From a virus, in IMG/VR virus record IMGVR_UViG_3300037189_018453, positions 30,271 to 94,270 of that record: DNA of 64,000 nucleotides. One strand, written 5' to 3'. Positions 37,671 through 61,275 of the stretch are shown piece after piece. Position 1 is the first letter of the stretch; each line of letters opens with the position of its first letter. Under the pieces are notes generated by a model that searched no databases, was not told where the DNA came from, and saw only the letters and a program-made list of their open reading frames with translations. The position numbers were made by a program, and so were the translations under genes.

Positions 37671-37698
37671 ATAATAGGCCGAACGAGATCAGTGTCAA
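37671..37698 (-). promoter_or_regulatory. Sigma70-like promoter for ssb
   Basis: On the - strand a perfect -35 box TTGACA (37693-37698) is followed after 16 bases by TATTAT (37671-37676). The -35 box overlaps the stop codon of the upstream polymerase gene, and the ssb start lies about 44 bases after the -10 box. Confidence 0.65.
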
Positions 37699-39320
37699 GC
37701 TGCTGGTTCAAAGCATTTTTCTACTACCAAGCCGTCTTTAGACTTAGTTTTATTGCCAGAAAAAACCAATACATTTCCAGGATACAAGTAGTTTCTATAT
37801 TTAGCAAATTGCTCTGGGAAAAATATTACCGAATCCAATGAGCCAAATTGATCATCAATAGTTATAAAAGCCATCTCTAGTCCAGGATTTTTACCTGTTT
37901 TAGTTTTAGCAATATTAATATTACTAATCTCTCCAGCTATAATAATATTATTATTTGCGTATGATGTTTTAAAGGTTTTGCAATTAGAATTCGCAGAGGA
38001 TACGTCATATACATCTAACTTAGAGCATGTAATAGCAACGCCTAGCAGAGCATTTTCCGAATCAGATAACCACTCTATCTTGTCTGTTAAAGAATAAGGA
38101 GGACTAATCAACGAATGCACATAATTTTGAAAAGCTAGTTTACGATTTTTAATTAGCTTATTATTTTGTAGGATATATTGTAGAATTTTTTGTACAGAGG
38201 TTTCTGTTTTAGCTAGTTCTATGAAACTTATCATCTCCTTCTTTGTTAAATTACTGCATATATCATACTCAAAAAGCATCTCTGTTCTGTGTTTCTTAAA
38301 ATAATCAAATGCACCAGAACTAATCAAGGCTTTGCTAGCAATAGAATTAATATTTAATAGCACACTAGATAAAATCTGCGTCCAGGACAACTCATTAACG
38401 TTCCTTTGGTCTGCTAATGTTATAATTTTATTATAAACAGAATCCCCAACCCCCTTAATATCAGTTAGTCCAAAATAGATATAATTGTCTTTTAAAATAA
38501 AACAACGATTCAGATTTCTAAAATCTGGTATGTTAACAACAATATCCATTTCAACAGCATTTCTAACAAGCTCTTTGATTTCCTGTTGCGGATCAATTTT
38601 GTCTTTGGCAAATCTTAGATATGATGCAAAAAATACTCTGGGGAAATGCGCTTTTGCATAAGAAGATAGATAAGCATTCATTGCATAACTAATAGAATGA
38701 CTAGCGTTAAATAAATATCTTTGGGATTTTTCTATCCATTCAAAGATTTGTTCCGCATCTGTTTCTGTTATTTTGCCATTAGTCTTGGCTCCATCAATAA
38801 ACTGTTTTTTTACCTTAGCCATTTTATCTGCTTGTTTTTTGCCTATCGCCTTTCTAAGATTGTCTGCTTCTTTCAGATCAAAACCGGCTAGCTCTTTGGC
38901 TATAGACATAGCTTGTTCTTGATATATCATTTCTGAATATGTATCTTTTAAGATAGGCTCTAAAGCAGGATGAAAATAGTCTATAGATTCAAGACCATTT
39001 TTTTTATCGATATAATGATTCGATACGCTTTTACCGTCTCTATGTGCCTCTAGACATCCCGGCCTTAGAATACTTATTAAACCAGATAACTGTTCAATAT
39101 TTTGTGGCTTTAATTTACGAGCCATGGTTTGTCCTAACCGCGACTCTAGTTGAAAACAACCCTTAGTGTTACCTTCTGAAATTAATTCCCATGTTTTTGA
39201 ACACTCCAAACTAATATCTGATATTTTTGGAGAAAACAATATTTTAGGATTGTTACTATTCGTAGCATCATCAAGAACCTTGAATTGACACCCACAATCA
39301 AATACTAAATTTTTTGACAT
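37695..39320 (-). CDS. dnaE: DNA polymerase III alpha, C-terminal half (fingers, HhH, OB)
   Basis: A 541-residue protein equal to the C-terminal half of a DnaE-type replicative polymerase. It starts just after the palm and carries the fingers: GCFQLESRLGQTMARKL, then LISILRPG, then MIYQEQAMSIAKELAGF, LRKAIGKKQADKM, NASHSISYAMNAYLSSYAKAHFP. It then has a helix-hairpin-helix (FGLTDIKGVGDSV) and an OB domain (IIIAGEISNINIAKTKTGKNPG). The three palm aspartates are in the other gene. Together the halves total 1162 residues, close to a whole DnaE. No intein motif is present at its start. The two halves must associate non-covalently. The exonuclease gene lies just upstream. Confidence 0.85.
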   Translation of the reverse strand: MSKNLVFDCGCQFKVLDDATNSNNPKILFSPKISDISLECSKTWELISEGNTKGCFQLESRLGQTMARKLKPQNIEQLSGLISILRPGCLEAHRDGKSVSNHYIDKKNGLESIDYFHPALEPILKDTYSEMIYQEQAMSIAKELAGFDLKEADNLRKAIGKKQADKMAKVKKQFIDGAKTNGKITETDAEQIFEWIEKSQRYLFNASHSISYAMNAYLSSYAKAHFPRVFFASYLRFAKDKIDPQQEIKELVRNAVEMDIVVNIPDFRNLNRCFILKDNYIYFGLTDIKGVGDSVYNKIITLADQRNVNELSWTQILSSVLLNINSIASKALISSGAFDYFKKHRTEMLFEYDICSNLTKKEMISFIELAKTETSVQKILQYILQNNKLIKNRKLAFQNYVHSLISPPYSLTDKIEWLSDSENALLGVAITCSKLDVYDVSSANSNCKTFKTSYANNNIIIAGEISNINIAKTKTGKNPGLEMAFITIDDQFGSLDSVIFFPEQFAKYRNYLYPGNVLVFSGNKTKSKDGLVVEKCFEPAA

Positions 39321-39325
39321 AAATC

Positions 39326-40018
39326 CTATAGATTAAAAGAAGATTTGAACTTAATTTTTTTAGACATATTGCGATGTAGCTTTAAAAAACGAATCAAAAT
39401 ATTAGCACTATCTTGTACGTCTTTTAAAGCATCGTGCGCCCCGTCTTTATTTATTCCTAAATAATCTCTAAGATTATCTAGAGTATAGTTTTTGAGTTCG
39501 TTATTTCCTTCAAACCAATAAAAGACAAGATTCATGATATCTATAACGTCTCTAGGATAAAATAGAGAGGACCTGCCTTCTTTATTGAGATTGTTATATT
39601 TTTTACTCAGTCGTTCTGTAATTCGTAAATCAAATCTATTGATATTATATCCGGCTGCAATAGGTGCAGTAAAGCAACTTTTATTAGAAGATCTAATATG
39701 ATACATATCTAAATATGAAACAAACATATTCCAACTGTGATCTTGCTTCGGATATTCTAGCCAACTAGCCAAGATCTTGTCTTTTGTAGATGACCTAACC
39801 TTGGCATGAAAGTCCAATATATCAGAATCTCCGTAATTATAGCTTGAGTCATTTTCTAAAGCATCTGGTTTAATCATAATGTTAAATTCTGAATCTTTTA
39901 TGATTTCTAATCTAACAGGATCAACCATTACGGCAGCTATCTGCACTGGACTACAAATATCTGGATTAGACCCATCCGTTTCTAAATCAAAAACACAAAT
40001 TTTTTGGAAATTAGCCAT
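39326..40018 (-). CDS. DEDDh 3'-5' exonuclease (DnaQ-like)
   Basis: A 230-residue exonuclease with the DEDDh motifs in order: FDLETDGSNP (Asp and Glu), GYNINRFDLR (second Asp) and HDALKDVQDSA (His and Asp). In bacterial systems this enzyme proofreads for the Pol III alpha subunit. It lies between the two halves of the polymerase gene and overlaps a small ORF upstream by 8 bases. It is therefore probably the proofreading subunit of the split polymerase. A homologous fold in RNase T is less likely given the context. Confidence 0.85.
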   Translation of the reverse strand: MANFQKICVFDLETDGSNPDICSPVQIAAVMVDPVRLEIIKDSEFNIMIKPDALENDSSYNYGDSDILDFHAKVRSSTKDKILASWLEYPKQDHSWNMFVSYLDMYHIRSSNKSCFTAPIAAGYNINRFDLRITERLSKKYNNLNKEGRSSLFYPRDVIDIMNLVFYWFEGNNELKNYTLDNLRDYLGINKDGAHDALKDVQDSANILIRFLKLHRNMSKKIKFKSSFNL

Positions 40019-40192: not shown

Positions 40193-42058
40193 TTATTCTC
40201 CATTTTTAAGAGTTTCTGATACGGCCATAATTTTATCCAACATAGCTACTCCTAATATATCAAACTTGATTAAACCAAGGCTCTCTAAATCCTGCATTTC
40301 CATACCCGCGATATTTTGCTTATTTTTAGCATCGTAGATCATAGGACACACAGAACCAAGACTTTCTTTACTAATAACTACACCGGCTGCATGTTTAGAT
40401 TGATTAGATTTAGTGCCTTCAAGACGTATGGCTTGTTCAAATCTTTTTGCCAATGGACCCGCCAAAGAACCGTCATCAGATATATAGCACCATTCTTTGA
40501 GTTTGTCAACGTTATTCTCTAACGCCCACCGTATAATAGAAGACTCTCCGGTATCTTCCTTCATTTCTTGCAGCTCGTCTGCTATTTTAGACTCGTCTGG
40601 TATATATTTGGTGATTCTATTCATTTCTTCAAAAGAAATATTACCATATACTCTAAGTACCTCTTTGAGAGCACCTCTACCTTTCATAGTATTAAAAGTA
40701 ATCATTTGCGATACCTTATCTCTACCATATTTTTCTTTAATATAGTCTATAACATATTCTCTTTTATTAATTGGTACGTCTACGTCTATATCTGGCATAG
40801 ATATGTGATCGGCGGTATTTCTGCCCTCATTATAAAATCGTTCAAATAATAAATCATACTTGATCGGATTAATTTGTGTAATGCCTATCAAATAAGAGAC
40901 TAAACAACCGGCAGCACTACCTCGTCCTGGTCCAGGTAACCAGTTATTATTCTTAACATATTCGACAATATCTTGAACAATAAGAAAATAGCTAGACAGA
41001 CCAGCCTTTTGCAAAATGTCTAATTCAAACTTGATTCTATCTATGTAGATGTGATGTTCTGATTCTGGAATAACGTCTTTTATTTTATCTTTCCATCCAT
41101 TACGACATAATTGTCTTAAATATTCATCCGGAGCATTATTATTTGGACATAGAAAAGTGGGCAACATAGGCTTATTAAGTATGTCGTATTCCTCACACAT
41201 ACTACTAATGTAGTTAGTGTTTTCTATTTCTTCTTCCGTATGCCATCCATTCATTTCGATACTGTCTGGAATATGGAAATTTTCTGATTTAAAAAAACAG
41301 CTCATAGGCACATCTTGACCAGCCAAAATCTTCTTATTGATATCTATTAATGTCGTCTTTAGATTATTACATAATAAAATTCTTTGATCAATAGCATCTT
41401 TTTTCTCACAATAATGAGCGTCCGGAGTTGCAATAATTTTAGTTTGTGTTTTATGAGATAGATTTCTCATAAAGTCGGTCATATCTTTTTGTTCTGGACT
41501 AAACTCTTGATCCATTAATTGTGCTTCTAAAAAGAAATTTTCAGGACCAAATATTTCTTTCATTCTGTAGATATAGTCAGAACATTGTTTAATATCTCCA
41601 CCAGAATGGTGTGCTAGATCTGATAATGTGGATCCTAAATGTCCACAGTAGCCTATAATATTGCCATCTAACAAATCAGCCAATATATCCATGCTTAATC
41701 TTGGCTTATGATAAAAATATTCTTCTTTATTGGATTCGGATACTATTTTGATCAAAGTATGCCATCCAGATAAATTTTTAGCTATAATAAGAAAGTGACT
41801 TAGTTTACTATTGTCTTTAGTCTTATTAGTAGCACTATCAGTACTGATATATAGTTCACATCCTAGTATAGGTTTTATTTTTCTTGTTTTCATAGCCTGA
41901 TAAAATTGAACACAACCAGAAATTGATCCATGATCAGTAATAGCACAAGACGATACTCCTATGCTAGTACATCTGTCTCCAATTTGATGTGGCTTACTTA
42001 TACCATCTAACAGACTGTAGTGAGAATGGCAGTGCAATACAGAATAATTTTTAATCAT
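40193..42058 (-). CDS. dnaE: DNA polymerase III alpha, N-terminal half (PHP and palm)
   Basis: A 621-residue protein holding the PHP domain (LHCHSHYSLLDGIS, ITDHGSISG, PILGCELY) and the palm: GPGRGSAAGCLVSYL, then DLLFERFYNEGR, then PDIDVDV with two catalytic aspartates, and FDILG near the C-terminus with the third. It ends about 14 residues after FDILG (AVSETLKNGE). All palm chemistry is here but the fingers are in the separate gene at 37695-39320. PHP His and Asp residues look intact, so a metal-dependent activity of the PHP domain is possible. Gene ends overlap the RecB/Cas4-like nuclease by 4 bases. The split has no intein sequence on either side. Confidence 0.88.
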   Translation of the reverse strand: MIKNYSVLHCHSHYSLLDGISKPHQIGDRCTSIGVSSCAITDHGSISGCVQFYQAMKTRKIKPILGCELYISTDSATNKTKDNSKLSHFLIIAKNLSGWHTLIKIVSESNKEEYFYHKPRLSMDILADLLDGNIIGYCGHLGSTLSDLAHHSGGDIKQCSDYIYRMKEIFGPENFFLEAQLMDQEFSPEQKDMTDFMRNLSHKTQTKIIATPDAHYCEKKDAIDQRILLCNNLKTTLIDINKKILAGQDVPMSCFFKSENFHIPDSIEMNGWHTEEEIENTNYISSMCEEYDILNKPMLPTFLCPNNNAPDEYLRQLCRNGWKDKIKDVIPESEHHIYIDRIKFELDILQKAGLSSYFLIVQDIVEYVKNNNWLPGPGRGSAAGCLVSYLIGITQINPIKYDLLFERFYNEGRNTADHISMPDIDVDVPINKREYVIDYIKEKYGRDKVSQMITFNTMKGRGALKEVLRVYGNISFEEMNRITKYIPDESKIADELQEMKEDTGESSIIRWALENNVDKLKEWCYISDDGSLAGPLAKRFEQAIRLEGTKSNQSKHAAGVVISKESLGSVCPMIYDAKNKQNIAGMEMQDLESLGLIKFDILGVAMLDKIMAVSETLKNGE

Positions 42059-44040
42059 ACCGATCCGGGAGCCTTATATGAACCTATGACGTGATTGGGA
42101 TGTTTGTACAGACCCATTGTAGTGTCGATACCATATAAGTCAAGATCGTGTTTAATTTGCTCACATTTGGTCATAGACTGCCCAATTCCGCATGCTTGTC
42201 CATCTCTGTATTCTACGATAGGCTCAATATGAGTATTTTGGAATGTTGTTTTGCCAAAATGACACAATTTACTACACATCCAACTTTTACTTAGTTTAGG
42301 TTTTTTAGTAGACTTAATAGCTTCAAATTTTTGCCTAATCATATTTTCGGTATCATTCAAATCTTTATCGTGAAAACATATAGAGAATGGACCGCCATCA
42401 TTAATAAAATAAATAGAGAACATAATATTCTCGATATGAGGATATAAGTGTTTGATAGCATAATGATAGATTCTTAGCTGAGGATCTTTTTCCAGTTTTT
42501 CAATAGTTTTTTCCTGTCCAGTGGCCCAATCTAATCTTCTGCCTGTATTATGTGTTGGAATAAAATTTTCTGTACATAAATAAGTATTGTCTGGACTATC
42601 TACAGATATGCATTGAGTTTTTTGTGTTATAGATTTTTCTATACTTACTATTCGTCTAACACTAGATCTGCCAGACCCCCAATTAACATCAACTTTGTCC
42701 GCTTTTCTGGATAGTAAAAATGGATTTAGATTTATTGGCCTAAATGCTATTGGAAAAATATTAACATCATTTTTGAAATTAGTATTTCTATTTATAAAGC
42801 TTTGATTAGGTCTTTGTCCTAGTGTTAAGAGTAGGTGTTTAACATCATTAGATAATCTTCTATTGCAAGACGTAAAGACCGCTTGCTTTCGTTTTGTATT
42901 AATGTTTCCGTCAGTATCCATAAGTCCTCTCAATAAATCTAATCTTTGATTAAAAGAGGCTCTAAAAAATATTTCTGGAATATGTTTGTTATTCAATAAG
43001 TTAAGTGAGCGTAATTTATCTTTCGTTTTCAAAACTGTTACAGTTTTATTATTGGATCTTTTGTCAGAACATATTTTACCAAGTTTATATCCACGCTTTT
43101 CTATTTCTTCAAAAATCTCTATATCATTTCCACTCAGTTCACACTGTCTATTTCTCCCATCTCCTAGCCATACTCCTAATAAATATGGTTCTATTGGTAA
43201 TTCAATATCATCACAAATTAATGGCTTACAAACATTTATAGTATCACCATTATTTAGTTCTGTAACACAAACTGTTTCTCCACTACTCAATTTCCATAAG
43301 TGTTCATCGTCACAAACTACTGATGTTTTATCATCAAATGTTATTCTATAACAATCTTTGGTTTTTACTTTAGATTTTCCAATAACAGAACATTGATGAC
43401 CATATTGGTCAAAAACCTTATCTCCCACCAAAACTTCTCCCATAGTTGTCCATCCATTAGGTGTTGGTAAAGAAGTGTTTATTGGTAATCCTTTCCAGTC
43501 TATAATTTCTATGGTATTATCATTTACTAATGTAATCAAATCTATTGTGCCTTTGAGAGCTAAATTGCCTTCTATTGTTTGTTCGTCAATATTATACGAG
43601 TATTTGGACCAAGGTTTTTTAATTTCAAAATCAAAATGCTGCTCTGGACACAGAATATTTCTGTTTCTAGGATCAAACATCCCATTATTAAATTCTATCG
43701 CCTTATAAACCCACGCATGACAATCTTTATAATCTTTGATTGACCACTTATGGTGTGTTGTTTTTTCTGTATAGTATTTATATACTTTTTCTATGATTGT
43801 ATTTAAATTATAGTTATGTATTGATACTGTGCCTACAACATCATCTTCAAAAGTATCGATCTTGTCTTGTTCGGACTTTCTAATAATCGCTAGTATTTCT
43901 AGTACCTTATGTACAATAGTTCCTTTGTCTGCTTTTTGTCCGGATGGACCACGCCAACCTAAAACATATTCTGCAAAGAATTGTTGTTCACACATACTGT
44001 GTGTATTATAGCTAGAACTACGAAAATATGTAATTATCAT
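42055..44040 (-). CDS. RecB/Cas4-like PD-(D/E)xK nuclease interrupted by an intein
   Basis: A 661-residue frame; removing the intein (residues 184-498) leaves about 346 residues. Extein motifs: early Cys CEQQFF, then GTIVHKVLE, then GTIDLI and EIIDWK (the D..DxK catalytic set), and after the intein TGRRLDW, DPQLRIYHYA. Late Cys residues (SWMCSKLC, CGIGQ, MTKC) suggest an Fe-S cluster as in Cas4/AddB. Such nucleases process DNA ends. The intein lies directly after the catalytic Lys, so the precursor should be inactive. Position between dNMP kinase and polymerase points to a role in replication or recombination. Confidence 0.85.
   Translation of the reverse strand: MIITYFRSSSYNTHSMCEQQFFAEYVLGWRGPSGQKADKGTIVHKVLEILAIIRKSEQDKIDTFEDDVVGTVSIHNYNLNTIIEKVYKYYTEKTTHHKWSIKDYKDCHAWVYKAIEFNNGMFDPRNRNILCPEQHFDFEIKKPWSKYSYNIDEQTIEGNLALKGTIDLITLVNDNTIEIIDWKGLPINTSLPTPNGWTTMGEVLVGDKVFDQYGHQCSVIGKSKVKTKDCYRITFDDKTSVVCDDEHLWKLSSGETVCVTELNNGDTINVCKPLICDDIELPIEPYLLGVWLGDGRNRQCELSGNDIEIFEEIEKRGYKLGKICSDKRSNNKTVTVLKTKDKLRSLNLLNNKHIPEIFFRASFNQRLDLLRGLMDTDGNINTKRKQAVFTSCNRRLSNDVKHLLLTLGQRPNQSFINRNTNFKNDVNIFPIAFRPINLNPFLLSRKADKVDVNWGSGRSSVRRIVSIEKSITQKTQCISVDSPDNTYLCTENFIPTHNTGRRLDWATGQEKTIEKLEKDPQLRIYHYAIKHLYPHIENIMFSIYFINDGGPFSICFHDKDLNDTENMIRQKFEAIKSTKKPKLSKSWMCSKLCHFGKTTFQNTHIEPIVEYRDGQACGIGQSMTKCEQIKHDLDLYGIDTTMGLYKHPNHVIGSYKAPGSV
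42547..43491 (-). other. Intein (315 aa, class 3 signature) in the nuclease
   Basis: The intein starts with Gly (GLPINTSLPTPNGWTTMG) after the extein DWK and ends FIPTHN before the extein Thr. It has no Cys or Ser at position 1. Instead it shows the class 3 signature: Trp in EHLW, Cys in QCISVD and Thr in PTHN. A LAGLIDADG endonuclease lies inside (LLGVWLGDG and LLRGLMDTDG). Class 3 inteins use the internal Cys as first nucleophile. Confidence 0.85.
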
Positions 44041-48310: not shown

Positions 48311-48707
48311 AGATTTTATTTTTCCATTGATCTACTGTTTCATTATACGGCAATGCAACAAATTTTAATCCATTGAGTAGGCACCACTCCTCTTTTTCTC
48401 TATCTTTTTTTTGAGCTTTTAAAAATGACATTCTATTGCCATGGTAAAATGGAATAAATTCATAGTGTTGTTGTCCATGAACTTCTATTGCTGTCTTTAT
48501 TAGTGGCAAGAAAAAATCTAGATATAATGTTTCTGATTTTCTAAGTTGTATTGGTACTTCTTCTAAAATTTGTAAAGTTGGATATGTTTCTATTAATAAT
48601 TGTCTGGCGACTAAGTGGAAAGATGATTTATCGTGTATTCTAGCTTTAGCAATATTCCCCGTAAGATTCCAGTTATGTCTATTGCCATCCAAATCAATAA
48701 TATTCAT
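48291..48707 (-). CDS. Vsr-like (PD-(D/E)xK) nuclease next to recA
   Basis: A 138-residue protein with LYLDFFLPLIKTAIEVHGQQHYEF, matching the Vsr/DUF559 nuclease core (Asp, then E.(D/H)G..H), and a C-terminal strand (LKFVALPYNE). It resembles the nuclease domain of the gene at 30595-31392 but lacks the DNA-binding N-terminal part. Its fixed place in the replication operon suggests a repair or Holliday-junction-type role rather than homing. The start overlaps the recA stop by four bases. Confidence 0.65.
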   Translation of the reverse strand: MNIIDLDGNRHNWNLTGNIAKARIHDKSSFHLVARQLLIETYPTLQILEEVPIQLRKSETLYLDFFLPLIKTAIEVHGQQHYEFIPFYHGNRMSFLKAQKKDREKEEWCLLNGLKFVALPYNETVDQWKNKIYEQQNI

Positions 48708-50740
48708 TTAATTCCCAACACCTCTTTAACTGCTTTTTGTACTTGATTATATGATTTAATATTGTCCAATAGATACTGTCTAACTTTTTCTGTTCCTTGA
48801 AATTTAGGCTTATCGTCCACAACAGTAATAGTGTACCATGCACCACCCTTATGAATAACGCCAACATCAGAAGCTAAATTAATAAGTTCTGTGCATTTGT
48901 CTATTCCCTGACCATATCTTATATAACTAGTGGTTACAGCCCCTGGTGGTCCTAGAGCAGAGCATACCACTTGCCACTCTATTTCCTGTCCTATTTGCGT
49001 ATTATCTGCCCCTAGAAGCCATGGTTTAAAAGTTTTGGCTCTTAGCTTGATGTCAGTTTGATATGCTATAGCTTGGCCGGATTTCTCTTTAAATTCTGCT
49101 CCATATCCGGTGGGATTTCCCATCAAGTGAGTAATACCTATGACTATATTTTTATTGACCGGAATAACATTTGCTACTTTACGACAGAACTTAGCTAATA
49201 GTTTGGCACCGTCAGCTCTTTGCATTTTATCCATATCAGATGTGATCTCTGCTTCTGTGCATAAAGCTGAATAAGAATCAATAATTAGTACACAACCGGG
49301 AACCTCATTAATAATACGTTCAGCAATTTGCAAATATTCTTCACCATGAAGAATCTTACCTTGTTGAGAACCTATAATTTCAAAGCGACTCAGATCTAAA
49401 CCATCTATTCCTTCAAGATCTCTTTTCTTAAGTCTACCTTCGATATTTAGATAGTACACATGCCTACCTTCTTTGAAAGATCCACTAGCATATTCCTTTT
49501 TTTGTGCTGTTGCCGCAAAATCTAGACTTGTTGTGGTATTATGTGTAACTATAAAATTATTAGTTAAATAGAGACCTTCTGGATGATCTACTTCTATACA
49601 AACAGATTCTTCTTTACCAATCTTATTAACCTCTATTATGGTTCTAAATAGCTCTGGTTTTTTTCTTTTGTTTCCGCTCTTTTTTCTTGGTAAATTAAAT
49701 AATTTATCAATATTATTACCATGAATATGTAGTCTATATGATAAGAATGTTTTGCCGTTACACGACGTAGATCTATTTGTAATATTACAAGTATATCCAA
49801 GACTTTCTAATACTTCTCTAACATCATTCGCTAGTTTTTCAGATACCGAGCTATATTCAGCTCTTAAGCCATTATCATTGTAACCATCGGTGTCCATCAA
49901 TCCTCTTATAAGTTTCCATCTATTATTAATAGAGGAATATTTATATATATTAGGTATAAATTTTGTATGAGAAGAACAGCCCATCAATTTAAGTTTTTTT
50001 AGATCTTTAGTTACTGTATTTCTAACCAATATATTCCTTGTATTCTTGCTACTTATTCTATAGTCATAATTAGCAATATGCTTAAGAGATAAGCCTCTGG
50101 ATTGACAAAACTGTTTAAATTTATTTATGACAAAAGTATCCGAGGATGTAATTTTTGGAGTCTTATTCGTTATTCCACCATCTCCTAATATACATCCTAG
50201 AATATATGGATCAATACAGAGTTTTTTCTTTTGTGTAAAATAAACAGGTTTAGTCAATTGAATTTTCCATTTCCATCTGTCGCTATATCTTAGTCCATCT
50301 TTTAGAATTTCTTCTAATGTCATGGTCACATAATTAGTTGTCCTGTCATTTTTTGCTACAGTCCAGTTGTGTTCTAAACCGCAGTAAGTTTTTGATCCAT
50401 CATTAAATTTTACTTCATAAATATCTTTTTTACCTTGAGGATACACTCCCATAACACTAGATACCGAACCATAAGGATTGCATATTAGGTCTCCAATTTG
50501 GATAGATCCAATCATTTTTGGACCATTGGGAGTATAAATCAAATCTGTTAATCTCTGAAGTTTTCCGCATTTAGGCTGACCAGTTAGAATCACAAAACTA
50601 CCTTCTGGTATGCCTCCATTTAAAGCTATGTCTAGAGATGGGCTTACTGGTATAACTACAACATTTTTATCGACTAAAGCGCTACCAGATAGTATGATCT
50701 CATCTCCAAAGTTTTTAATTACGTCTTCTTTAAGGCTCAT
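48704..50740 (-). CDS. RecA/UvsX-like recombinase interrupted by an intein
   Basis: A 678-residue frame; without the intein (residues 61-401) the protein has 337 residues, the size of a RecA. Motifs: IPEGSFVILTGQPKCGK then, after the intein, TTTSLDF (Walker A), then CVLIIDSYSAL (Walker B), then FCRKVANVIPVNKNIVIGITH. It catalyses strand exchange in recombination-dependent replication. The intein sits between Lys and Thr of the P-loop, so the precursor cannot bind ATP until splicing. It overlaps its neighbours by 4-11 bases and begins the replication operon core. Confidence 0.88.
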   Translation of the reverse strand: MSLKEDVIKNFGDEIILSGSALVDKNVVVIPVSPSLDIALNGGIPEGSFVILTGQPKCGKLQRLTDLIYTPNGPKMIGSIQIGDLICNPYGSVSSVMGVYPQGKKDIYEVKFNDGSKTYCGLEHNWTVAKNDRTTNYVTMTLEEILKDGLRYSDRWKWKIQLTKPVYFTQKKKLCIDPYILGCILGDGGITNKTPKITSSDTFVINKFKQFCQSRGLSLKHIANYDYRISSKNTRNILVRNTVTKDLKKLKLMGCSSHTKFIPNIYKYSSINNRWKLIRGLMDTDGYNDNGLRAEYSSVSEKLANDVREVLESLGYTCNITNRSTSCNGKTFLSYRLHIHGNNIDKLFNLPRKKSGNKRKKPELFRTIIEVNKIGKEESVCIEVDHPEGLYLTNNFIVTHNTTTSLDFAATAQKKEYASGSFKEGRHVYYLNIEGRLKKRDLEGIDGLDLSRFEIIGSQQGKILHGEEYLQIAERIINEVPGCVLIIDSYSALCTEAEITSDMDKMQRADGAKLLAKFCRKVANVIPVNKNIVIGITHLMGNPTGYGAEFKEKSGQAIAYQTDIKLRAKTFKPWLLGADNTQIGQEIEWQVVCSALGPPGAVTTSYIRYGQGIDKCTELINLASDVGVIHKGGAWYTITVVDDKPKFQGTEKVRQYLLDNIKSYNQVQKAVKEVLGIK
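49538..50560 (-). other. Intein (341 aa, class 3 signature) in the RecA P-loop
   Basis: The intein begins with Leu (LQRLTDLIYTPNGPKMIGS) directly after GQPKCGK and ends FIVTHN before TTTSL. The class 3 set is present: Trp in LEHNW, Cys in SVCIEVDHPEG, Thr in VTHN. LAGLIDADG motifs: YILGCILGDGG and LIRGLMDTDG. The first residue cannot start a classical acyl shift, so the internal Cys is the likely nucleophile. Confidence 0.85.
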
Positions 50741-59211: not shown

Positions 59212-61275
59212 TTATAGATAAGAATCAAATCCGTAATCTGGTAGTTTTTGTACTGGGAAACCATCAAAATTACTGAATGCGTAGGCCCCGTTTTGAGAAA
59301 GCATTCCCTTTGCCACATCGGCTTTTATTAAAAAAGATCCATCTGGAATAGGACCCCAATCTGGATGTCCTCCATCGTTCCATTTGCCCCAACTATTTTG
59401 GATCAGGAACGCTAGTTCTCCATTAGTGTCATCACATGCTATCCATGCCATAGCATGAGCCCATGAGCCAGACTGCTTAGCAAAGCCCTTTTTATCTCGT
59501 ATGCTACTAAATCCATAACTAGAACAAACACTTAATGCATAACCATTAGCTAAAGCGTCTCGTGCTTCTTCTACTGTTCTTACAAGACTAACTGTTTTTA
59601 TTTGATGGTCATTTGCTAAATCTATAATAGGATCTGGTAGTCCACGACCTCCCCAGCCCGCACCTAACATTCCTTGGTATTTAGATAAATCAACAACGCC
59701 TTTATAGTTTTTTCTAACTAAAACACCCCCATATTTACTCACAAACTCAGCCGCTCTAGCACAACTCATGCCTTGTCCACCATGCCCACGAGCACCATAA
59801 ATTCCCTCTGTTGCGCCCCTAGCTATCCAACTCTCTCTATCTGCATGAACATCAATTTCTACTGCTCGACTAACATCACAAGCGTTTCGCGTTGCGTGAC
59901 TTACACAGTTATTGATACCAATACCATTACAAATAAAATTATGATCTTTTTCAACTTCTATACAGTAAACAAAATTTTCTTCTGGTTCTACTATATTAAT
60001 ATCTACGATTCTAATCATAGAACCTATAGTATTTTTCATAGATATTTTTGTAATGTATTTAGTTTTTTCACAAGCTATATGTCTGCTCGACGAAGCACTT
60101 AAATTTAAAACGTACGCATCTTGTCTATTCTGATCATGAGACATATCTCTTTTCAAAATAGAAAAATTAAGATTAACATCATTAGCTATTTTGGCAAAAT
60201 TCAATACTAGATTTTTAGAAACACTACAAGCAGAAGTCTGTATTTTACCTTGATGGCCATCACCATCAATCCAGCCTTTTAGTAAGGCTAGTTTATTTTT
60301 TTTAGTAGTTACAAACAATTGTTTCCCTAAGCTTTTGGTATAGGTGTTGCCATTAACAAGATACTTAAATAAATTCGCAACAAATACACTATTTATTCTA
60401 GCATAGATAACTGTTGATTTTGATGGCACTTGATAAATATGAGTATCAATATCAAAGATTTCTTTGATGTAAGAACGAATTTGTTCTGCGATAATAGCCT
60501 CATGTCCGCCTAAGTTGAAAGTGATTCTTTCGATCTTATTATCCACACCATCAACACCCCCCTCTGCGGCATATAGGCCTAGAAGCCAACATAATTTTGT
60601 GTCTAATTTAATATATCGTTTAATTGGGCATCTACCCCCTTTGGCTCTAATATATCCTTTCTCTACGGGTTCTAGTCTCAGTTGTTTGTAGTCGGTATTT
60701 TCATCTATAATTTTCCCATCATAGAAATTAGTCATATCAAAAATATGATCTTCTTCAAAATCAACCTGGGGCATAAATACGCTGTCTCCAATCTCTAGTA
60801 ATCCAATAGCCTTTGTTTTCATTGATATATTATCTATAATATATTGGTGGTCTGGAGTAGAAGCTATTTTAGTATGATTAGACAGGGTTAACTCCACCAT
60901 TTTTTTGTGATAAGGTTTTTTAAAAATGTTTGTGACTTTTCTCTTCTTGCCGAGAGCGCTGATTACATACTCTCCAATTTTGATATCTTTAATTGCTTTT
61001 GACGAGCCATCGCTCATCAATACTAAATCGCTACCATTTTGGCAGTCACCAGTTACTTGTCTTTCATTATATGGGTTTTTATCAAATTTTAATACGCTTT
61101 TATAAGGAGTAGACAGCTTTCCTTTGCCTGTTCCAGAAACTTTCTTACTAGCATCTCCGAATAATGGATATTTAGAAATTTCCATTAAATGATCGAATAT
61201 ATGGGGCTCCCAAAGACAACCATTGTAGCCCTGTCGATAATTATCGTATAGTTCTTTAGGAGTAAAGCGTGGCAT
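59212..61275 (-). CDS. Papain-like cysteine protease interrupted by an intein
   Basis: A 687-residue frame; removing the intein (residues 78-456) leaves 308 residues. Extein motifs of the papain (C1) family: TGD then CVSHATRNA (catalytic Cys), GSWAHAMAWIACD (catalytic His) and LIQNSWGKWNDGG (Asn). The catalytic Cys is the first residue after the intein, so the precursor has no active protease. Role in the phage may be virion protein maturation, lysis or host protein cleavage; there is no signal peptide. It lies among membrane and holin-like genes and overlaps the previous gene by one base (ATGA-like junction). Confidence 0.9.
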   Translation of the reverse strand: MPRFTPKELYDNYRQGYNGCLWEPHIFDHLMEISKYPLFGDASKKVSGTGKGKLSTPYKSVLKFDKNPYNERQVTGDCQNGSDLVLMSDGSSKAIKDIKIGEYVISALGKKRKVTNIFKKPYHKKMVELTLSNHTKIASTPDHQYIIDNISMKTKAIGLLEIGDSVFMPQVDFEEDHIFDMTNFYDGKIIDENTDYKQLRLEPVEKGYIRAKGGRCPIKRYIKLDTKLCWLLGLYAAEGGVDGVDNKIERITFNLGGHEAIIAEQIRSYIKEIFDIDTHIYQVPSKSTVIYARINSVFVANLFKYLVNGNTYTKSLGKQLFVTTKKNKLALLKGWIDGDGHQGKIQTSACSVSKNLVLNFAKIANDVNLNFSILKRDMSHDQNRQDAYVLNLSASSSRHIACEKTKYITKISMKNTIGSMIRIVDINIVEPEENFVYCIEVEKDHNFICNGIGINNCVSHATRNACDVSRAVEIDVHADRESWIARGATEGIYGARGHGGQGMSCARAAEFVSKYGGVLVRKNYKGVVDLSKYQGMLGAGWGGRGLPDPIIDLANDHQIKTVSLVRTVEEARDALANGYALSVCSSYGFSSIRDKKGFAKQSGSWAHAMAWIACDDTNGELAFLIQNSWGKWNDGGHPDWGPIPDGSFLIKADVAKGMLSQNGAYAFSNFDGFPVQKLPDYGFDSYL
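59908..61044 (-). other. Intein (379 aa) at the protease catalytic Cys
   Basis: The intein starts with Cys (CQNGSDLVLMSDGSSKAI) and ends IGINN before the extein Cys. Block B reads STPDHQ (T..H). The penultimate residue is Asn where His is usual. LAGLIDADG motifs: LLGLYAAEGG and LKGWIDGDGH. This is a class 1 type by its first residue, unlike the other two inteins in the window. Splicing restores the active-site sequence. Confidence 0.88.

Follow-up and report, generated by a model that had tools for sequence, protein, structure and literature searches.

Inteins that follow the catalytic lysine of a RecB/Cas4-like nuclease are already known from phages that infect mycobacteria. Among C1 mycobacteriophages, Kelley et al. 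(2016) reported 40 RecB/Cas4-like exonucleases that carry an intein, all at one site within the PD-(D/E)XK motif, and placed these inteins in the class 3 tree (PMC5050341). Class 3 is marked by the WCT motif, made up of Trp at block B position 12, Cys at F4 and Thr at G5 (PMC3196547; PMC7664689). Within the C1 group, the Catera gp206 intein undergoes efficient class 3 splicing (PMC3196547), ET08 gp202 is 99% identical to Catera gp206 (PMC3029335), and ParkTD gp213, which reads ELK/SLACSTP...VPTHN/T (slashes in sequences mark intein boundaries), occupies the same locus as ET08 gp202 with 99% identical DNA. Copies at the same site are also found in Mycobacterium phage Zeeculate (DYK/G), Streptomyces phage Frankenweenie (DWK/G), Pseudomonas phage Rollin (DLK/G) and Nonomuraea fuscirosea (DTK/G), in genes whose submitters annotated them as Cas4 or RecB-like exonuclease, or as hypothetical. 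The Nonomuraea copy (L179, NZ_PVNG01000006.1, a 413-kb contig) is a class 3 intein reading DTK/G...HN/TG in a nuclease-like ORF that is probably a prophage gene.

The locus described here lies in a 64,000-nucleotide stretch of DNA (the window) taken from a 94-kb IMG/VR virus record, and a 100% identical copy is present in the 223-kb contig IMGVR_UViG_3300032328_000860. Its intein shares with those of the C1 mycobacteriophages (Catera Gp206, ET08 gp202, ParkTD gp213) the WCT residues, a LAGLIDADG domain, insertion after the lysine of a (D/E)-x-K motif, and the existence of sister phages in which the site is either filled or empty; the ParkTD intein differs in starting with Ser1 and in belonging to another class 3 lineage, where it groups with the LittleE TerL intein. 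The Zeeculate, Frankenweenie, Rollin and Nonomuraea inteins share Gly1, WCT and the site with the window's, are 40-45% identical to it over the full length and fall in the same clade, whereas their exteins have no detectable BLAST similarity to that of the window and they come from other hosts. The class 3 DnaB inteins of M. smegmatis and M. chimaera (6bs8, 6rix) resemble it in splicing-domain sequence and fold and in the Cys-His-Thr triad plus Trp, but are mini-inteins without an endonuclease and sit in a replicative helicase. PI-SceI, the yeast VMA1 intein, has the same bipartite build of splicing domain and LAGLIDADG endonuclease, but uses a class 1 mechanism, has no WCT and interrupts another host gene. 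The first-pass annotation had regarded a class 3 copy in a Cas4-like nuclease as unusual; this is contradicted by the published C1 site (PMC5050341; PMC3196547) and by the Zeeculate, Frankenweenie, Rollin and Nonomuraea copies.

The ORF at 42055-44040 on the minus strand, of 661 amino acids, reads ...EIIDWK/GLPINTSLPTPNGWTTMGEV...EHLW...QCISVD...FIPTHN/TGRRLDWATG..., and its parts are as follows.

42055..44040, minus strand: precursor gene, PD-(D/E)XK RecB/Cas4-like nuclease with in-frame intein, 661 aa (one open frame; Pfam)
43492..44040, minus strand: N-extein, 183 aa, ending in the catalytic motif D181-W-K183 (alignment against empty-site homologues)
42547..43491, minus strand: class 3 intein, 315 aa, Gly1 to Asn315 (phmmer, AlphaFold2 model, Foldseek)
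43294..43302, minus strand: block B, His64 (B10) and Trp66 (B12, W of WCT) (invariant in the 14-intein alignment)
43156..43182, minus strand: LAGLIDADG motif 1, LLGVWLGDG, intein residues 104-112 (14-intein alignment)
42907..42936, minus strand: LAGLIDADG motif 2, LLRGLMDTDG, intein residues 186-195 (Pfam LAGLIDADG_3, alignment)
42610..42612, minus strand: Cys294, block F position 4, C of WCT, predicted initiating nucleophile (invariant in the 14-intein alignment)
42547..42555, minus strand: Thr313-His314-Asn315, Thr being the T of WCT and Asn predicted to cyclise last (invariant in the 14-intein alignment)
42544..42546, minus strand: extein +1 Thr, predicted acceptor nucleophile for the second branched intermediate (sequence)
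42055..42546, minus strand: C-extein, 163 aa plus stop (alignment against empty-site homologues)

The window reads DWK/GLPI...PTHN/TG exactly where empty genes read DWK/TG, so that the insert proposed at 42547-43491 proves correct to the codon, at exactly 315 codons. Its proposed position directly after the catalytic lysine (Lys183, codon 43492-43494) also holds, because D167 and D181-W-K183 are invariant in the nuclease alignment and empty homologues join DWK to TG. The insert is in frame, has exact intein-less alleles, a predicted HINT fold, a C-terminal Asn and a +1 Thr. The exact empty sites rule out chance or a mis-called frame, and an intron is ruled out by the frame, which is open throughout, by the predicted HINT fold and by an Rfam scan of the window, which returned no RNA family. 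The insert is genuine and looks functional.

The host protein was confirmed as the RecB/Cas4-like PD-(D/E)XK nuclease that had been proposed. Pfam matches PDDEXK_1 on the precursor only as far as residue 184 (E = 2.4e-12), alongside LAGLIDADG_3 (E = 3.8e-07), and in the intein-less sister protein the PDDEXK_1 match runs continuously through the insertion site (E = 4.7e-17). D167, D181 and K183, the PD-(D/E)XK core, are all conserved without exception. An AlphaFold2 model of the intein-less sister protein, of moderate confidence (mean pLDDT 72, with the core partly above 90), gave fold matches to Cas4-family ACE1 as the best hit, followed by AddAB, AdnAB and SSO0001. Five cysteines (17, 274, 278, 302 and 311) are invariant in the nuclease alignment and could be ligands of an Fe-S cluster. 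Cas4 proper, a protein of CRISPR adaptation, is recognised by such cysteines together with a link to CRISPR-Cas; among the neighbouring genes scanned with Pfam we found replication genes, not cas genes. Cas4-like is the safe label for this nuclease. No isolate relative of the extein was present in the phage collection at E 1e-3.

The same region carries a DNA polymerase III alpha divided between two minus-strand genes, 40193-42058 and 37695-39320, with PHP and palm domains in one and finger, HHH and OB-fold in the other, and an exonuclease-like gene, epsilon-type by eye, between the halves at 39326-40018; no intein was seen at this split. The same nuclease, with an intein 73% identical to the window's, also occurs in a Lake Lanier MAG labelled Alphaproteobacteria (L176, RFNS01000104.1), where the contig is probably of phage origin and was placed in a bacterial bin; its label is possibly a hint to the host.

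Assignment of the insert to class 3 is borne out by sequence and predicted structure, which agree: W66, C294 and T313 are present, and residue 1 is neither Cys nor Ser, as is usual for class 3. Gly1 is confirmed, and Gly cannot form the classical class 1 thioester, as the first-pass annotation had pointed out; its Trp, Cys and Thr signature likewise stands, while the extein +1 Thr that it had counted in is present but lies outside the motif (PMC3196547; PMC7664689). H64, W66, C294, T313, H314 and N315 are invariant in all 14 aligned inteins from the window's lineage, and Cys294 is kept in every nuclease-site relative aligned across that part. His64 and Trp66 correspond to His65 and Trp67 of MchDnaB1 (PMC7664689). 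Residue 1 is Gly in the window and nearly all relatives, His in L034 and L040, and Ser in ParkTD; the +1 extein residue is Thr in nearly all relatives and Ser in L034 and L040. In the comparison with class 3 inteins that had been suggested as a check, similarity was detected, with the solved class 3 DnaB inteins ranking first in phmmer (6bs8, E = 2.8e-17; 6rix, E = 9.6e-17). An AlphaFold2 model of the intein (pLDDT 91.4) was matched by Foldseek to 6bs8 over the splicing domain (TMt 0.91), to PI-SceI over its full length (E = 2.8e-16) and to I-DmoI. In an intein tree built without a class 1 outgroup, it groups with motif-bearing phage TerL and DnaB inteins.

By homology, Cys294, activated by His64 with Thr313, would attack the Lys183-Gly1 bond, and the N-extein would become linked to this cysteine through a branched thioester. 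Transfer of the acyl group from Cys294 to the +1 Thr would follow, after which Asn315 would cyclise and an O-to-N shift would link Lys183 to Thr, freeing the intein and restoring the DWKTG active site. Before splicing, the nuclease should be inactive.

The LAGLIDADG pair was correctly described as intact: both motifs are present as two helices with acidic residues, in a predicted endonuclease fold that Foldseek relates to PI-SceI and I-DmoI. In L031 and L038 motif 1 is lost or degenerate and the endonuclease domain has decayed, with the splicing residues kept. The window's domain would cut intein-less alleles at the conserved D-x-K codons, the presumed cut site, and repair of the cut allele would copy the intein in.

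An IMG/VR search with the full protein returned genes with the intein (L006-L041) and without it (L042-L085); more than 40 viral contigs encode the same nuclease with no insert and an exact DWK/TG join (DWK/SG in two). The nearest empty copy, in contig G002 (IMGVR_UViG_3300042197_002516), encodes a nuclease 95% identical to the window extein, and to either side of the site its DNA aligns colinearly with the window, the match stopping at 42549 and restarting at 43492. Intein presence and absence require at least five changes on the extein tree, three of them forced by well-supported branches. L008, with the intein, and L081, without it, have near-identical exteins and are tree neighbours, and distant exteins hold closer inteins, as in the window and L030 (extein 47%, intein 64%). 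L016 and L023 show no differences in 1 kb upstream, one in the N-extein and two in the 945-nt intein, then diverge sharply from about 26-27 bp past the intein, where 489 nt hold 74 differences. Because contigs assembled from several metagenomes share the L023 haplotype (L014, L015, L017, L018, L025), an assembly chimera is unlikely. The boundary has the pattern left by endonuclease-driven gene conversion, although ordinary phage recombination could produce the same. Between the window and L007, pN is about 0.16-0.18 and pS about 0.57-0.59 in intein and extein alike, a pattern of substitutions indicating that both are under similar purifying selection.

When 32 class 3-type inteins were placed in one tree, a small sample without a class 1 outgroup, the window intein fell with Zeeculate, Frankenweenie, Nonomuraea and Rollin, and the ParkTD/Catera type fell with a TerL intein, a grouping that Kelley et al. 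also obtained (PMC5050341). The AU test rejects one shared origin for all the class 3 inteins at the nuclease site (p-AU 4.8e-06), and thus class 3 inteins of at least two lineages have probably settled at this codon, which may be a new point. An Atopobiaceae MAG (L178, JAFWKQ010000001.1) contains a class 3-type intein in a protein that appears RecT-like by eye; in the tree this intein forms a long branch nested within the nuclease-site clade, and a single origin is still rejected when it is let into the clade (p = 3.9e-04).

Two further inteins were found in this phage.

48704..50740, minus strand: RecA gene with a class 3-type intein in Walker A (GK/T) (Pfam RecA, E = 4.7e-14; alignment to empty-site RecA)
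49538..50560, minus strand: RecA intein, 341 aa, with Leu1, Trp66, Cys321, THN and +1 Thr (alignment)
about 59908-61044, within 59212-61275, minus strand: third intein, class 1-like, with Cys1, an Asn-Asn end and +1 Cys (sequence, Pfam)

Across relatives, residue 1 of the RecA intein can be Leu, Asp, Glu, Met or Ser, with W, C, THN and +1 Thr/Ser kept. Among the titles that our literature searches returned, none reported a class 3 RecA intein. The RecA and nuclease inteins share 36% identity and lie on different tree branches, which rules out that either arose by recent duplication of the other within this phage. The extein of the third intein, the 59212-61275 protein, looks papain-like (GDCVSHATRNAC). 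The sister contig G002 is without the nuclease, RecA and third inteins, and G003 has the RecA intein with an empty nuclease site; the RecA and nuclease inteins therefore move independently.

Two other accounts of the splicing apparatus deserve weighing. The first is a classical mechanism, class 1 or class 2, started by some other residue or by direct attack of the +1 Thr. The ParkTD intein does have Ser1, some class 3 inteins are said (Tori and Perler, 2011) to keep Ser1 or Cys1, and class 2 requires a +1 nucleophile, which Thr provides; nevertheless, a class 1 thioester is impossible with Gly1, and the residues that define class 3 (W in block B, C in block F, T in block G) all occur here and do not vary, which leaves such a mechanism extremely improbable. 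We also regard as very unlikely that the insert is a decayed intein of class 3 ancestry that has lost splicing and left the nuclease dead in this phage. Decay has a precedent in Arth_1007, a class 3 pseudogene intein without Cys F4 and His B10 (PMC3196547), and the endonuclease domains of L031 and L038 have decayed. However, even these two keep H, W, C, THN and the +1 Thr, the catalytic residues of the window intein are all intact and invariant, and both intein and extein are under purifying selection. The window insert is very probably a mobile class 3 intein, with predicted class 3 splicing and homing by its LAGLIDADG domain.

A different question is whether, beyond selfish homing, the phage retains the intein because it acts as a switch, holding back nuclease (and RecA) activity during infection. 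The insert disrupts the nuclease's catalytic centre, a second intein of this phage lies in the RecA Walker A motif, and mycobacterial DnaB inteins are reported to splice conditionally (PMC6195587, PMC7360933). Against this, most related phages do without the nuclease intein, the RecA and nuclease inteins occur independently, as in G003, and the sister phage G002 lacks both; we consider a switch quite unlikely. That the RecA and RecB/Cas4-like nuclease inteins together impose a post-translational delay on recombination in infection, and are not purely selfish passengers, is an idea to which we give slight credence. Splicing by the class 3 route and spread by homing remain the most likely reading of the residues and alleles described above.

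These results extend a known class, the class 3 inteins of phage RecB/Cas4-like nucleases, to an uncultured phage lineage. They add a set of natural alleles within one phage group in which a single codon is followed by an intein, by no intein or by an intein with a decayed endonuclease; evidence that class 3 inteins of two distinct lineages inserted independently after the one catalytic lysine; and a pair of colinear phages, one carrying three inteins and the other lacking all of them. While the understanding of inteins is unchanged, the allele series, the two lineages and the sister pair make homing, co-conversion and site choice directly testable.
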